From positions 1 to 35,132 of the forward strand of contig JAJRQG010000045.1 in NCBI GenBank assembly GCA_024280395.1: DNA of 35,132 nt. The letters are read 5' to 3'. The translations under genes were made by a program, and so were the position numbers. The notes beneath the pieces are model-generated. The model searched no databases. It was not told the DNA's origin and was given only the letters and a program-made list of their open reading frames with translations. This document shows, one piece after another, positions 13,344-22,995 of this stretch. Position 1 is the first letter of the stretch. Each line of letters begins with the position of its first letter. Source of the DNA: Gammaproteobacteria bacterium (GTDB lineage Bacteria > Pseudomonadota > Gammaproteobacteria > Xanthomonadales > Marinicellaceae).

Positions 13344-13495
13344 ATCAGTAAGCTCAATTGTAATATAGAGCACATATTATAGCAGAACAGCGATAAATAA
13401 AAGTCACGATAATTTATATAAAGTATAAAATAAATTTATGCATGTTCTTTCATCTCTATATCTTGATAAAAGAATGTAAAATTATAATAAAAACA

Positions 13496-13523
13496 TTGCA
13501 TTTATGATTTTTTCTGATAAATT
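13496..13523 (+). promoter_or_regulatory. Candidate sigma-70 promoter for the met operon
   Basis: TTGCAT (13496-13501) and TAAATT (13518-13523) are separated by 16 bases. A start site near 13530 would place the riboswitch about 45 bases into the transcript. The region 13344-13573 is a divergent intergenic stretch, so other AT-rich promoter-like boxes (for example TATAAT near 13483) are also possible. Confidence 0.35.
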
Positions 13524-13573
13524 ACCCTCATAGGTTTTAATAACAACAAAAAATGATGTTTTAAGAATCTATA

Positions 13574-13681
13574 CTTTATAACGATGAGGTGAGAGACAGG
13601 CTCGATGACCCTCAGGCAAGTTCGACAAATAATTCTTTTTGCGATAGTGCCAAATCCTGACCAATACTGGTGAATATAAAG
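13574..13681 (+). promoter_or_regulatory. SAM-I-type riboswitch upstream of metX-hom
   Basis: This leader matches the SAM-I riboswitch architecture. P1 is CTTTATA (13574-13580) pairing with TATAAAG (13675-13681). GAG...CTC forms the P2 helix in GAGAGACAGGCTC, followed by the kink-turn GATGA and the conserved GGCAA. After the P3 arm comes GTGCCAAATCCTGACC and then GGTGAA just before P1 closes. It is about 108 nt. Ligand binding stabilises P1. The first ribosome binding site downstream (AAGAGAG) overlaps the P1 3' strand, so SAM could reduce translation of the leader ORF. The same element occurs inverted at 22847-22962 with conserved core and diverged arms, which supports the call. SAM-I/SAM-IV variants are an alternative subtype assignment. 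Confidence 0.9.
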
Positions 13682-13689
13682 AGAGCATT

Positions 13690-13788
13690 ATGAAACAAAC
13701 ACTCAACACATTTCAATTATCACATAATAGCCATTTTATTGGCTCGCATTCTATTATGCCTATGCGAATGCTATTTTTGGCTTGCTAA
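13690..13788 (+). CDS. Short Met-rich leader ORF between riboswitch and metX-hom
   Basis: A 32-residue ORF starts at ATG 13690, 8 bases after the riboswitch, with AAGAGAG as a good Shine-Dalgarno. Its C-terminal part reads GSHSIMPMRMLFLAC, so Met codons cluster at residues 23, 25 and 27. That composition, its position between a SAM sensor and a methionine-pathway gene, and the presence of pairable sequences downstream suggest a regulatory leader peptide. Direct ribosome occlusion of the hairpin at 13828 is not obvious, because it starts about 58 bases after the Met codons. It could instead be a chance ORF; conservation would decide. Confidence 0.5.
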   Translation: MKQTLNTFQLSHNSHFIGSHSIMPMRMLFLAC

Positions 13789-13827
13789 TTCAAATTATTT
13801 AAACCTTTACTTAATTCGATTTTCAGG

Positions 13828-13912
13828 CCATTGCAAATATAAGCATAAGCAATGGACACATTTATTCTTATATTTAGCAATAGTCTGATTTTCCCCAAGA
13901 AAAATTGGAAAA
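13828..13912 (+). promoter_or_regulatory. Mutually exclusive hairpins before metX-hom (possible attenuator)
   Basis: Hairpin A pairs CCATTGC (13828-13834) with GCAATGG (13849-13855). Hairpin B pairs TTGCAAATATAAG (13831-13843) with CTTATATTTAGCAA (13867-13880), 13 pairs with one bulged A. A and B share TTGC and cannot coexist. A third stem, TTTTCC (13889-13894) with GGAAAA (13907-13912), would hide the likely ribosome binding site of the gene at 13916. No strong U-tract follows, so control at translation is as plausible as termination. The whole scheme is inference from pairing. Confidence 0.4.
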
Positions 13913-13915
13913 CAG

Positions 13916-16132
13916 ATGTTACAAACTTTAAAAACAAACAATACTCAACAGCCCTCGGTACTGCAATTTGATCAGGGTTCAACTCTTCATAATACTGGCC
14001 TATTCCAGTTAGAAGAAGCCATTGAATTAGAATGTGGAGATGTATTATCACAGCTAAAAATCAGTTATAGTACTTACGGAAAGCTCAATGCCGATAAGTC
14101 AAACGTCATTTGGGTTTGTCATGCATTAACAGCAGATGCCAATCCCAAAGATTGGTGGCAAGGACTGGTAGGAAAAGAGGATTTTTATAATCCTGATGAG
14201 TATTTTATTGTCTGTGCCAATGTGATTGGCTCTGCTTATGGTTCAACTTCACCGTTGGTTTGTGACTTGGATAAAAGGTATGATCAATTTCCCACAATCA
14301 GCATCAGAGACAATGTAAGAGCCTTTGTTGAGTTAAGAAAACACTTGAAAATAGACAGTATTCATACGCTAATCGGTGGTTCTATGGGTGGTCATCAAGC
14401 TGTAGAATGGGCAATATTAGAGCCCAGTGTGGTTAAACATTTAATTTTGCTGGCAACTTCAGCTGTCATGTCAGCCTGGTCGACTGCTTTCAATCAATCT
14501 CAACGGTTGGCAATACAGGCCGATGAAAGTTTTGGTAAAAAATATCCTGAAGCAGGTAAATCAGGTCTCAAAGCAGCGCGCAGTATCGCTTTGTTGAGTT
14601 ATAGAAACAATCAAGCCTACAACCAAACACAAGTCGATACCTTTGATTTTAATCGCACCACAAAGGCCGTGAGTTATCAAAATTACCAAGGCGATAAATT
14701 AGTGAGCCGTTTTAATGCCTATAGTTATTTCGCCCTAACAAAAACCATGGACTCACATGATGTCGGTCGCAGTCGAGGAGGAATAGAGCAAGCATTGAGT
14801 GCGATAAATGCAAAAACATTGGTCATTGCCATCGATTCAGATATTTTATTTCCAGTTGAGGATTCAAAAATATTAGCAAAACATATACCCAATGCCAAAT
14901 TACAAGTTATTGGCTCTGACTTCGGCCATGATGGGTTTTTAATTGAAACCACCAAGATAAGCCAATGCCTTGCAAACTTTTATACACAAAAAAATAATTT
15001 ACAGGAAAACAAAGGAACAATTGGCATGGTTGGTTTGGGCTGTGTGGGTCAAGGTGTGTTTCAATTGTTAGAAAATTCAAAAAATAAAATAAAAACCATT
15101 GCGGTCAAGCATGAATTTAAAGCCAGAAGTTATGCCTGTGATTTATTGACAACTCAGTTATATAATGTACTGAATGATTCGCAGATTAAGACAATAGTAG
15201 AGGCCATTGACGACGATAAAAAAGCATTTGATATTGCAAAATCAGCAATACGACAGGGAAAAAACCTAATCAGTGCCAACAAAAAAATGATTGCTGAGAA
15301 TTTATCTGAAATAATAAGATGGAATAAAAATCACGAGTCATCATTCTTATATGAAGCGGCTGTTGCAGGAAGTATTCCTATTTTAAGGAGCTTAGATAAC
15401 TATTTTGAACAAGAGAATAACCAAAAAATCACCGGAATACTGAATGGATCAAGCAACTATATTCTGACTCAATTGTTTCAATCTAACTGTACTTACCAGC
15501 AAGCTTTAGAACAAGCACAGGCTAAGGGCTATGCAGAAAGTAATCCAATTTCAGATGTGGGTGGATTTGATGCCAAATACAAAGCTGTCATTTTGGCGGC
15601 ACATGCTTTTGGGTTTTTGATACACCCTGATTTAGTCAACAATTATGGTATTCAAAATATCTCAGACCAAGACATAGAGTTTGCCAAAGCCCATGATTTA
15701 ATTATCAAACAAGTAGTCACCATTGAAAAGAACTCTCAGGATAAAATATCGGTCACGATATTGCCTGAATTCATTGATATGTGTGAAGAACTAACCAAAA
15801 CCGACAATGAAAACAACACCATAATTGTGCACAACAATGATACTGATTTTCTATTTAAAGGGGCTGGTGCAGGCTCTATTGCGACTGCAACAGCCATCAC
15901 TGCTGATTTAAATGCGATAAATAGAAATTACAGTTACCATTATGACATTAATCCACAATTGGCTTTGGATACAGGATTTGCGATAAAACTGTATATCAAT
16001 AAACAACATTTAACTCAAAAACCTCAAGGAAAAATTCTTGATGAAACAAATGATTACCTTATTATCGAAACCTGTTATGATGAATTGAATCGAATCAATA
16101 CCCAAAAAAACTTTATAGCTAAAATTAATTAA
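13916..16132 (+). CDS. metX: Homoserine O-acetyltransferase / homoserine dehydrogenase fusion
   Basis: A 738-residue bifunctional protein. Residues 1 to about 355 form an alpha/beta-hydrolase acyltransferase of the MetX type. It has VCHALTADANPKDWW, nucleophile Ser156 in GGSMGG, an acidic residue in AIDSDILFP near 307-309, and His338 in FGHDGFL. Residues from about 365 form homoserine dehydrogenase: NAD(P)-binding GLGCVG at 373-378, ANKKMIAE, EAAVAGSIPIL, GILNGSSNYIL, AKGYAESNPISDVGGFDAKYK. No C-terminal ACT domain is evident. One polypeptide would thus make homoserine from aspartate semialdehyde and activate it with an acyl group. It is read through continuously with no frameshift. It is preceded by the SAM riboswitch leader and followed by metZ after 7 bases. 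Acetyl versus succinyl donor cannot be told from sequence by eye. Confidence 0.93.
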   Translation: MLQTLKTNNTQQPSVLQFDQGSTLHNTGLFQLEEAIELECGDVLSQLKISYSTYGKLNADKSNVIWVCHALTADANPKDWWQGLVGKEDFYNPDEYFIVCANVIGSAYGSTSPLVCDLDKRYDQFPTISIRDNVRAFVELRKHLKIDSIHTLIGGSMGGHQAVEWAILEPSVVKHLILLATSAVMSAWSTAFNQSQRLAIQADESFGKKYPEAGKSGLKAARSIALLSYRNNQAYNQTQVDTFDFNRTTKAVSYQNYQGDKLVSRFNAYSYFALTKTMDSHDVGRSRGGIEQALSAINAKTLVIAIDSDILFPVEDSKILAKHIPNAKLQVIGSDFGHDGFLIETTKISQCLANFYTQKNNLQENKGTIGMVGLGCVGQGVFQLLENSKNKIKTIAVKHEFKARSYACDLLTTQLYNVLNDSQIKTIVEAIDDDKKAFDIAKSAIRQGKNLISANKKMIAENLSEIIRWNKNHESSFLYEAAVAGSIPILRSLDNYFEQENNQKITGILNGSSNYILTQLFQSNCTYQQALEQAQAKGYAESNPISDVGGFDAKYKAVILAAHAFGFLIHPDLVNNYGIQNISDQDIEFAKAHDLIIKQVVTIEKNSQDKISVTILPEFIDMCEELTKTDNENNTIIVHNNDTDFLFKGAGAGSIATATAITADLNAINRNYSYHYDINPQLALDTGFAIKLYINKQHLTQKPQGKILDETNDYLIIETCYDELNRINTQKNFIAKIN

Positions 16133-16139
16133 AAAAATT

Positions 16140-17309
16140 ATGAAAAACAAAAACTTTGAAACCCAAGCCATCAGAACACAGATTGAACGCAGTCAATTTT
16201 TGGAACATTCCAGTCCTCTGTACCTTAGCTCTAGTTTTGTCTTTGAAGATTCAGAAGACATGCGTGCATCTTTTGCAGAAGAAAAGGAAAAGAATATCTA
16301 TAGCCGATTTTCCAACCCCAATACCTCTGAATTTGTAGAAAAAATCTGCCAGATGGAAGGAGCAGAGTCTGGTTATGCGTTTGCCACAGGAATGGCCGCG
16401 ATTTATTCGACATTTGCTGCATTGTTGAACAGTGGTGATCACATAGTTTCGTGCAGAAGTGTCTTTGGATCGACCCATACTTTACTCACCAAATATTTTC
16501 CCAAATGGGATATTCAGCACAGTTATTTTGATGTCAATGACATTGATAAAGTGGAAAGTTTAATCAAAGAAAATACCAAGATACTTTATGCCGAATCTCC
16601 GACCAATCCAGCTGTAGATATTTTAGACTTAGAAAAATTGGGCCAAATCGCCAAGAAGCACAATTTAATTTTGATTATTGATAACTGTTTTGCAACACCC
16701 TATCTACAAAACCCCATAGACTTTGGTGCGGATATTGTAATTCATTCGGCCACAAAATTGATTGATGGTCAAGGAAGGGTGCTTGGAGGTGTGGCAGTTG
16801 GTCGAGCTGATTTAATAGAAGAAATCTATCTGTTCTCACGCAACACGGGACCGAGTTTATCGCCTTTTAATGCTTGGGTATTATCCAAAAGTTTGGAAAC
16901 TTTGCCTGTGCGTTTGGACAGACACTGTGAAAATGCCCTGAAAGTAGCAGAGTTTCTTGAAGCGCATGAACAAGTCAACTGGGTTAAATACCCTTTTTTG
17001 AAATCTCATCCACAGTATGATGTAGCCAAAAAACAGATGAAACAAGGTGGAAATATCGTGGCCTTTGAAGTCAAAGGCGGAATCGAAGCAGGTCGAAAAT
17101 TCATCGATGCAATAAAATTATGTTCGTTATCTGCAAATCTTGGCGATACCCGCAGCATTATCACCCATCCCGCTTCGACTACCCATTCTAAATTATCTGA
17201 AAGCGATAGATTACAAGCCAGTATTACCGATGGTTTAGTGAGAGTTTCGGTTGGTTTGGAACATATTGATGATGTGATTGCAGATTTGGAGCAAGCACTT
17301 GGTAGTTAA
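16140..17309 (+). CDS. metZ: O-acyl-homoserine sulfhydrylase (MetZ-like, PLP-dependent)
   Basis: A 389-residue member of the Cys/Met-metabolism PLP family. Visible are YSRFSNPNTSEFVEKI (start of the PLP domain), FATGMAAIYSTF, ESPTNPAVDILDL, IDNCFATPYLQNP and the Schiff-base lysine Lys206 in IHSATKLIDGQGR. The C-terminal SLGDTRSIITHPASTTH-like segment reads as LSANLGDTRSIITHPAST. It most resembles MetZ, which makes homocysteine directly from acyl-homoserine and sulfide. Cystathionine gamma-synthase is the main alternative. It lies 7 bases after metX-hom with a poor Shine-Dalgarno (only an A-run), so translation may depend on coupling. It should share the SAM-riboswitch control. Confidence 0.92.
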   Translation: MKNKNFETQAIRTQIERSQFLEHSSPLYLSSSFVFEDSEDMRASFAEEKEKNIYSRFSNPNTSEFVEKICQMEGAESGYAFATGMAAIYSTFAALLNSGDHIVSCRSVFGSTHTLLTKYFPKWDIQHSYFDVNDIDKVESLIKENTKILYAESPTNPAVDILDLEKLGQIAKKHNLILIIDNCFATPYLQNPIDFGADIVIHSATKLIDGQGRVLGGVAVGRADLIEEIYLFSRNTGPSLSPFNAWVLSKSLETLPVRLDRHCENALKVAEFLEAHEQVNWVKYPFLKSHPQYDVAKKQMKQGGNIVAFEVKGGIEAGRKFIDAIKLCSLSANLGDTRSIITHPASTTHSKLSESDRLQASITDGLVRVSVGLEHIDDVIADLEQALGS

Positions 17310-22759: not shown

Positions 22760-22846
22760 ACTTATAATAACGAAGTGAAGATAAGTTGATTAGGACAGTG
22801 TAAAAGATTAATAATGTGTTAATAACTTTGTACAATATCTGATTTG

Positions 22847-22962
22847 ATTTATATTCACCTAAATTATTCATTTAAGTTCAGGAATTGGCACTACTAAAAC
22901 TTGAAAAGTGTTTAGCTTGCCTGAGGGTCATCGAGCCTGTCTCTTGCCTCATCTTTATAAAG
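22847..22962 (-). promoter_or_regulatory. SAM-I-type riboswitch upstream of YeeE/YedE pair
   Basis: Reading the minus strand, this repeats the metX leader. P1 TTTATA (in plus 22956-22962) pairs with TATAAA (plus 22847-22853). The core AGACAGGCTCGATGACCCTC is identical, and GGCAAG follows. The P3 arm differs in sequence, then GTGCCAATTCCTGAAC and AGGTGAA lead to the P1 closing strand. Identical core with diverged loops is what a second functional riboswitch, rather than a recent duplication, would show. Genes downstream on this strand are the half-size YeeE/YedE transporters at 22679. The plus-strand yqhD frame can be extended through this region, but that extension is antisense to the riboswitch. 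Confidence 0.88.
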
Positions 22963-22995
22963 TTGCAGTTGTGAAAAAAGCTCAACCACAAGTTC

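Follow-up and report, generated by a model that had tools for sequence, protein, structure and literature searches.

A SAM-I riboswitch followed by a putative cysteine/methionine-sensing leader peptide in a gammaproteobacterial genus and in Bacteroidota

What does the RNA in front of a methionine operon measure when a riboswitch and a short open reading frame (ORF) follow one another within a single leader? The question is raised by the metX-hom leader of a gammaproteobacterial genome (GCA_024280395.1), located in the window analysed in the present study, i.e. the whole stretch of 35,132 nucleotides of contig JAJRQG010000045.1. The leader and the genes behind it are laid out as follows.

13573-13682, + strand: SAM-I riboswitch aptamer (RF00162), found by cmscan over model positions 1-108
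13675-13682, + strand: P1 3' strand of the aptamer (Rfam alignment), joined to the SD-like GAGAG of the leader ORF (13681-13685)
13690-13788, + strand: leader ORF of 32 codons (MKQTLNTFQLSHNSHFIGSHSIMPMRMLFLAC, then stop), based on the sequence, relatives of the genus and Bacteroidota
13756-13770, + strand: Met-Pro-Met-Arg-Met, codons 23-27, predicted stall sites (sequence, accessibility model)
13783-13785, + strand: Cys codon 32 (TGC), last sense codon and second predicted stall site (sequence, accessibility model)
13916-16132, + strand: metX-hom fusion (homoserine O-acetyltransferase and homoserine dehydrogenase; Pfam, NCBIfam), the regulated gene
16140-17309, + strand: next gene, an O-succinylhomoserine sulfhydrylase-like (MetZ-type) PLP enzyme (best NCBIfam model 517 bits, slightly below its cut-off of 522)

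This RNA apparently measures two inputs, SAM through the riboswitch and Met/Cys supply through the leader ORF. As far as sequence alone can establish, the leader is a SAM-I riboswitch combined with a ribosome-mediated attenuator; the sequence test for the former and the sequence features of the latter are met, and SAM binding and ribosome stalling are inferred.

The initial annotation of the locus had staked its reading on a SAM-clan match, and one was found: the complete SAM-I-type aptamer that it placed at 13574-13681 passes the RF00162 gathering threshold over the full model (60.6 versus 44.4 bits), from which SAM binding is inferred. Against R1, a model of the leader-type aptamers, the locus scores 86.2 bits, being itself one of the 26 R1 training rows. 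The contact between the leader SD and the P1 3' strand is also as described; the two have 13681-13682 in common, P1 lies within the initiation region, and the join (TATAAAGAGAGCAT) is identical across the six leaders of the genus. The source genome has two SAM-I matches, both inside the window. The second (22846-22963, - strand; 54.7 bits), of the same leader-type subtype, lies upstream of a YeeE-like/DUF6691 gene pair and lacks a nearby leader ORF, and a sister genome (L012) has an arrangement resembling this YeeE-type copy. MetJ was ruled out as a competing regulator, as the whole source assembly (99% complete) has no match to it, and with MetJ absent SAM-I may be a main methionine control of the source species. 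SAM-I was called sporadic in gammaproteobacteria in 2007 (PMC2258182, in the part of that paper available), and the initial annotation likewise thought it uncommon there; this fails for the order of the window, in which 314 of 398 sampled genomes match RF00162.

The 32-codon ORF, expected 8 bases after the aptamer, is present and starts at 13690, 7 nt past the aptamer end (13682). Its end had been characterised as Met-Pro-Met-Arg-Met-rich, which is correct for the Met cluster at residues 23-27 but overlooks that the cluster stops five residues before the last, which is Cys. With three Met and one terminal Cys, the window leader is unusually Met-biased and poorer in Cys than any of the other five genus leaders. 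SAM-I is present in six of the 11 genomes of the genus (source genome counted), and all six of its SAM-I leaders preceding met genes have a Cys/Met leader ORF, so that the ORF is kept in homologous leaders, as the initial reading required. The metY leaders of the sister species (5/5) have an ATG 8-10 bases past the aptamer and Cys/Met-rich ends (e.g. ...CCMCMCMP...), ending in SCCMCMCMPTMQ, SCCMCMRMLKNAIV, SCTCCMCMCRMP, SCCPMAMCCMCMPRMQ and CSMCMSNMQ; the leader of L010 may serve as an example (MKNETISTNQNFNSTQILQSCLMQSCCMCMCMPTMQ). Two of these metY calls, L013 (= L007) and L014 (= L008), match the O-acetylhomoserine aminocarboxypropyltransferase/cysteine synthase subfamily, and the other three were judged from the same protein start. 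In these five species metY stands directly 3' of the leader, and the gene behind metX-hom in the window is MetZ-like. The aptamer of L011 (genome G025; L011 660-850) is about 80 bases longer than those of its relatives, owing to an insertion in one arm, and still exceeds the Rfam threshold.

A comparison of synonymous and nonsynonymous change did not clearly support the ORF in the manner anticipated. Codon-position counts in eight close pairs give no clear synonymous excess and hence no clear sign of purifying selection, with 17/17/22 differences at positions 1/2/3 of the last ten codons and 62/56/70 in the rest; Cys codons in these pairs were identical in 29 cases, synonymous in five and replaced in 11. 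In another genus of the same family (g3; L003-L006), SAM-I precedes a gene judged metY-like by eye, without a leader ORF, and a hairpin directly follows the aptamer. Likewise judged by eye, this GGTGG-type hairpin with its T run suggests ordinary termination control.

Support for the ORF comes instead from its recurrence. We applied a rule (ATG/GTG ORF of 12-62 codons, starting -4 to +22 from the aptamer end, with at least four Cys/Met in the last 12 residues) that was met by 60 of 88 leader-type loci and by none of 146 control SAM-I loci (0/146), 65 of which have some near-aptamer ORF of any kind. The leader-type set comprises the six genus loci together with 35 metX-hom loci and 48 R1 hits, after removal of one duplicate (L245); since it was assembled by homology, 60/88 is not a population frequency. 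Its metX-hom loci are regular-expression aptamer finds among the best 80 of 106 metX-hom relatives (37 including L013 and L014), and its R1 hits are 48 of 75 listed places, several lower-scoring others being already controls, without near leaders. Among the controls, Bacteroidota contribute 80 classical and 29 top-scoring copies and the window's order another 29, to which four metH copies and L002-L005 are added. The classical Bacteroidota controls are high-scoring copies with a P1 3' strand of mostly GATAAG or GATGAG; L002 has the leader-type aptamer subtype. Three sites occur in both the R1 and control sets (L249/L209, L257/L233 and L270/L185), none of which meets the threshold, and L104 (contig edge), L146 (shortened), L006 and L012 were outside the controls, L012 having no near ORF with a Cys/Met end.

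The 77 distinct leader ORFs, mostly ~30-47 codons long, contain 283 Cys and 101 Met in their last ten codons (384/770 in frame), compared with 94 + 4 = 98 and 14 + 4 = 18 Cys + Met in the other two frames and 58.6 ± 7.0 (maximum 79) in 500 shuffles. Cys frequency is near zero from residue -13 outward and reaches ~0.5 at the last three positions, Met frequency peaks at -5 to -7, and the Cys codons are TGT (180) and TGC (152). Start codons lie +6 to +10 nt from the aptamer end in 62 of the 77. Below the threshold are 17 of the 77 ORFs, and 11 leader-type loci have no ORF at all. The leader ORF as a predicted reading frame, together with its codon bias, is thus a feature of these loci. The four metH copies without a Cys/Met leader (presumptive metH, recognised by eye) sit in genomes G398, G399, G400 and G402, each of which has a leader-bearing copy elsewhere, so that presence of the ORF goes with the gene rather than with the genome. 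In two controls a Cys/Met-ending ORF lies further away, in L147 at +146 (...MMCCCCCCMPFGA, ..FTHMMCCCCCCMPFGA; metY-like gene next) and in L178 at +103; the tight join to P1 is therefore not universal, and a looser version of the SAM-I plus Cys/Met ORF design may exist. The stacking of a SAM sensor on a Met-codon sensor, as first proposed, is supported by the genus leaders (6/6), by 60/88 versus 0/146 and by the modelled window switch described below, but it missed cysteine: in most of the 77 leaders the ORF closes with a run of Cys codons, and Cys outranks Met as a residue in the family.

How the ORF could control metX-hom is suggested by the region between them, where mutually exclusive hairpins and a stem over the metX-hom ribosome binding site (RBS) had been predicted. 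The elements concerned are listed here.

13778-13790, + strand: strand 1, over the leader ORF end and stop, pairing with strand 2 (13818-13830)
13818-13834, + strand: strand 2, partner of either strand 1 or strand 4, near-identical in five of the six genus leaders
13877-13893, + strand: strand 4, partner of either strand 2 or the metX-hom SD/start
13883-13894 : 13907-13917, + strand: sequestering hairpin, hiding the SD GGA (13907-13909) and the AU of the start codon

All three pairings outdo nearly every one of 1000 one-strand shuffles: the 1:2 duplex (-12.1 kcal/mol) is equalled in stability by a fraction of 0.001, 2:4 (-14.3 kcal/mol) by none (0.000) and 4:SD (-10.7 kcal/mol), which is present in the minimum free energy (MFE) structure of the leader, by 0.002. 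Folding of the leader (13573-13920) has a z-score of -2.84. Over the metX-hom SD and start, taken as the start codon together with the 16 bases preceding it, modelled accessibility is 0.40 with strand 1 free, 0.69 with the leader end masked and 0.35 if strand 2 is masked too, and the rise on masking was matched by 0 of 400 dinucleotide shuffles (window only), the masked positions averaged in this test having been picked after viewing the masking profile. When a ribosome was placed codon by codon, with an assumed footprint of 16 bases from the P-site codon, accessibility rose from 0.38 to 0.65 with Met27 in the A site and stayed raised to Cys32 (0.67) and the stop. The fold model leaves out ligand, tertiary contacts and co-transcriptional folding. 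In the window leader it thus predicts mutually exclusive hairpins, one over the ORF end and one hiding the RBS, which are weaker in relatives and weakest in L013 and L014.

The relatives temper this picture. Shuffle fractions for 4:SD are marginal at 0.03, 0.031 (L010), 0.056 (L011) and 0.10 (L013), and 0.79 in L014, in which the pairing is absent. The masking effect is clear in L001 (the window locus) and L011, slight in L009, L010 and L014, and hardly any in L013 (0.45 to 0.48); in L009, L010, L011 and L014 it is smaller than in the window. The modelled jump in accessibility falls after most of the Cys/Met run in L009, L010 and L011. The marginal 4:SD pairing, the weak masking and the late jump are evidence against a simple common model. 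The covariation called for by the initial annotation was seen in part: among the genus leaders, only six in number, some pairings are kept with different letters (4:SD is TTTTCC:GGAAAA in the window and has a TCTC:GAGA core in L010, L011 and L013), but covariation is weak in 12 Bacteroidota leaders, where a consensus fold of the post-ORF regions gave one 5-pair stem with five conserved pairs, one of them with a double change.

SAM-gated translational attenuation is, we think, probably the best explanation of the window leader, in the absence of bench data. With SAM bound, P1 would form abutting and slightly overlapping the leader SD and leader translation would fall, a step inferred from geometry. 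The end of the leader ORF would then be free of ribosomes, 1:2 would pair, and strand 4 would cover the metX-hom SD and start, switching translation off. If charged Met-tRNA or Cys-tRNA were short and the leader translated, a ribosome would be expected to stall at Met27 or Cys32 and cover strand 1 (the structure being modelled and the biology inferred), upon which strand 2 would pair with strand 4 and free the metX-hom SD and start. The operon would thus be on, roughly, if SAM is low and Met/Cys short. That SAM should lower leader translation is an inference from the overlap of P1 with the leader SD, the position of P1 in the initiation region and the precedent of an RBS within the P1 3' side as a known SAM-I platform (PMC2258182, from the portion available). 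A simple consensus scan of 13370-13960 for an intrinsic terminator (G+C hairpin followed by a U run) returned no site; intrinsic termination was rejected on this ground, and control in the source species most likely acts on translation, a prediction that rests on this absence.

SAM need not act through the leader ORF, however. The riboswitch and the attenuator could be two independent controls on metX-hom, SAM working by another route such as transcript elongation or decay, a possibility that we regard as unlikely without being able to dismiss it. The YeeE-type copies of the genus (L002, L012) lend it weight, as they have the same aptamer subtype and no near Cys/Met ORF, so the aptamer can use another route. 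The ligand-free MFE points the same way: P1 is unformed and the leader SD region (13678-13682, 13684-13689) is paired with the ORF end, so that even without SAM the leader RBS may be inaccessible, and SAM may contribute little to leader shut-off. Set against this, starts clustered at +6 to +10 nt (62/77) and a P1/SD join invariant in six genus leaders are what an action of P1 on the leader RBS would predict. Classic amino-acid attenuators act by transcription attenuation, and such an output, intrinsic or Rho-dependent, deserves weighing here. Rho has been proposed for mycobacterial Cys leaders (PMC1262725, in the text available from it). We consider this output distinctly improbable in view of the missing terminator-like site and of a last hairpin that lies over the SD and start codon, although Rho cannot be excluded from sequence.

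The ORF itself might not be a sensor. Runs such as CCMCCCCC could bind metal and most of the ORFs reach ~30-47 codons, as a functional Cys-rich microprotein (metal/thiol binding) encoded as an operon gene would; yet Cys/Met enrichment is confined to approximately the last 12 residues, the remainder drifts, the arrangement of the Cys residues is variable and the stop codon falls in strand 1 of the switch, which leaves this reading very little room. Nor is a short open frame arising by chance in AT-rich leader DNA credible to more than a minimal degree: the window ORF by itself only just meets the rule (four Cys/Met in the last 12 residues), but position and composition are conserved (60/88 versus 0/146), and these counts together with the frame and shuffle tests rule chance out for the family.

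Leader-type aptamers are not confined to this genus. RF00162 matches at E ≤ 0.001 were present in 247 of 296 sampled Bacteroidota genomes, and R1 at E ≤ 1e-8 had matches in 57 of 395 genomes. With R1, seven of the genus's eight SAM-I copies score 81.8-87.8 bits, and L011, with its insertion, 54.5; the 34 other SAM-I copies of the order searched score 39.1-56.0 bits. As R1 was trained on 26 aptamers including L001, L013 and L014, the scores of these three are partly circular; L002, L009, L010 and L012, outside the training set, reach 81.8-84.9 bits. A search of 369 sampled genomes from the class with R1 (E ≤ 1e-7) matched the source genome only. A peptide-pattern search of one genome per species (84,980 species) for metX-hom relatives, of which the best 80 of 106 were kept, gave only Bacteroidota groups, Ignavibacteria or Chlorobiota among these 80, except for L013 and L014 of this genus. 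MetX and Hom share one frame in the window and, of the 56 fetched loci having both, in L013 and L014 only. In the MetX tree (MetX alone, first 45 of 67 rows, midpoint-rooted, no other gammaproteobacterial MetX) the window groups with L013 and L014 at 100/100 amid Bacteroidota rows. These comparisons are most simply read as a transfer from Bacteroidota of the aptamer together with its leader and operon, which is likely but not proved.

Genes downstream of the leaders, where identified, mostly act on sulfide, sulfite, PAPS or homoserine esters. In Bacteroidota they include metY (L019; others by eye), PAPS reductase (L260, L277, L281), sulfite/nitrite reductase (L132), amino-acid permease (L280, L286), OsmC (L265) and a MetX-like hydrolase (L256); the protein downstream of L267 has no Pfam match. 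Leader-type loci occur in Sphingobacteriaceae, i.e. Pedobacter, Mucilaginibacter and Arcticibacter. From position 387, L132 has two consecutive Cys-rich short ORFs (..SCLCCCCCM, ..HCCMCCVCCCML) after one SAM-I aptamer. Three to five R1-type SAM-I copies apiece, a small regulon, are found in genomes G789, G474 and G568 (L266-L268, L274, L276, L277, L280-L283, L285, L286). Several of these copies have a Cys-rich ORF beginning with GTG at +3 or +10, and the genes behind the copies include PAPS reductase, permease, metY-like and others. The Bacteroidota leaders have their sensors in common with the window, and no claim is made on their output step, the consensus fold being weak.

On present sequence evidence, the window leader is not a lone oddity but one instance of a recurrent two-sensor design, found in sister species and in front of Bacteroidota sulfur genes. 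We further propose, tentatively and with a confidence slightly short of even, that Bacteroidota have a recurrent, undescribed hierarchical RNA regulator in which the output of SAM-I is translation of a Cys/Met-sensing leader peptide, SAM permitting or forbidding the attenuator; that it stands before sulfur-assimilation genes (metY, metX, PAPS reductase, sulfite reductase), metH there having the riboswitch alone; and that it was carried with its operon into the gammaproteobacterial genus and re-wired to hide SDs. One leader would then put a riboswitch and a leader-peptide attenuator in series, the riboswitch acting on the start of the sensing peptide, and cells could distinguish Cys/Met shortage from SAM shortage. 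The design would account for a SAM-I P1 with an adjacent start codon yet no full gene behind it, would probably exemplify a regulatory RNA that has crossed from one phylum to another and adjusted to a different mode of translation initiation, and is directly testable given the loci in Pedobacter, Mucilaginibacter and Arcticibacter.

No combination of a SAM-I aptamer with a Cys/Met leader peptide turned up in the literature searched, which left out most subscription papers and all preprints and offered some sources only in part. Poly-cysteine leader peptides of Actinobacteria were reportedly described by Canestrari et al. in 2020. Riboswitches and leader-peptide attenuators are generally regarded as alternatives that replace each other between lineages (e.g. 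PMC2965389, in the excerpt available). Closer to the Bacteroidota loci, amino-acid operons in a flavobacterium have been inferred to be preceded by leader-peptide attenuation (PMC9723704), and work on Bacteroides notes short ORFs that resemble leader peptides (PMC7366714), both according to partial texts. The poly-Cys leaders of actinobacterial cys operons (PMC1262725) are alike in that a short ORF, with consecutive Cys codons close to its stop, precedes sulfur genes; the accessible part of that paper mentions no riboswitch and reports conserved terminator hairpins as missing, whereas the leaders described here intersperse Met codons and have an ORF that begins at the SAM-I P1. The uORFC-8-2 motif before cysS in Rhodobacterales (PMC8632094) similarly has a uORF with tandem Cys codons and stems, but differs in its transcription terminator output, its gene and, in the sections available, the lack of any mention of a riboswitch. 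Salmonella mgtCBR (PMC3641672, seen in part) likewise has a layered leader with two short ORFs and stem-loops, without a SAM aptamer and responding to other signals. The aptamer described here fits the SAM-I (S-box) family model (RF00162) with an RBS at the P1 3' side, the difference being that this RBS serves a leader peptide and not a metabolic gene. Two sensors per leader are known from the tandem SAM-I and AdoCbl riboswitches before metE of Bacillus clausii (PMC2258182, from the same available portion), where both sensors are aptamers; in the leader proposed here, the second sensor would be the translating ribosome.
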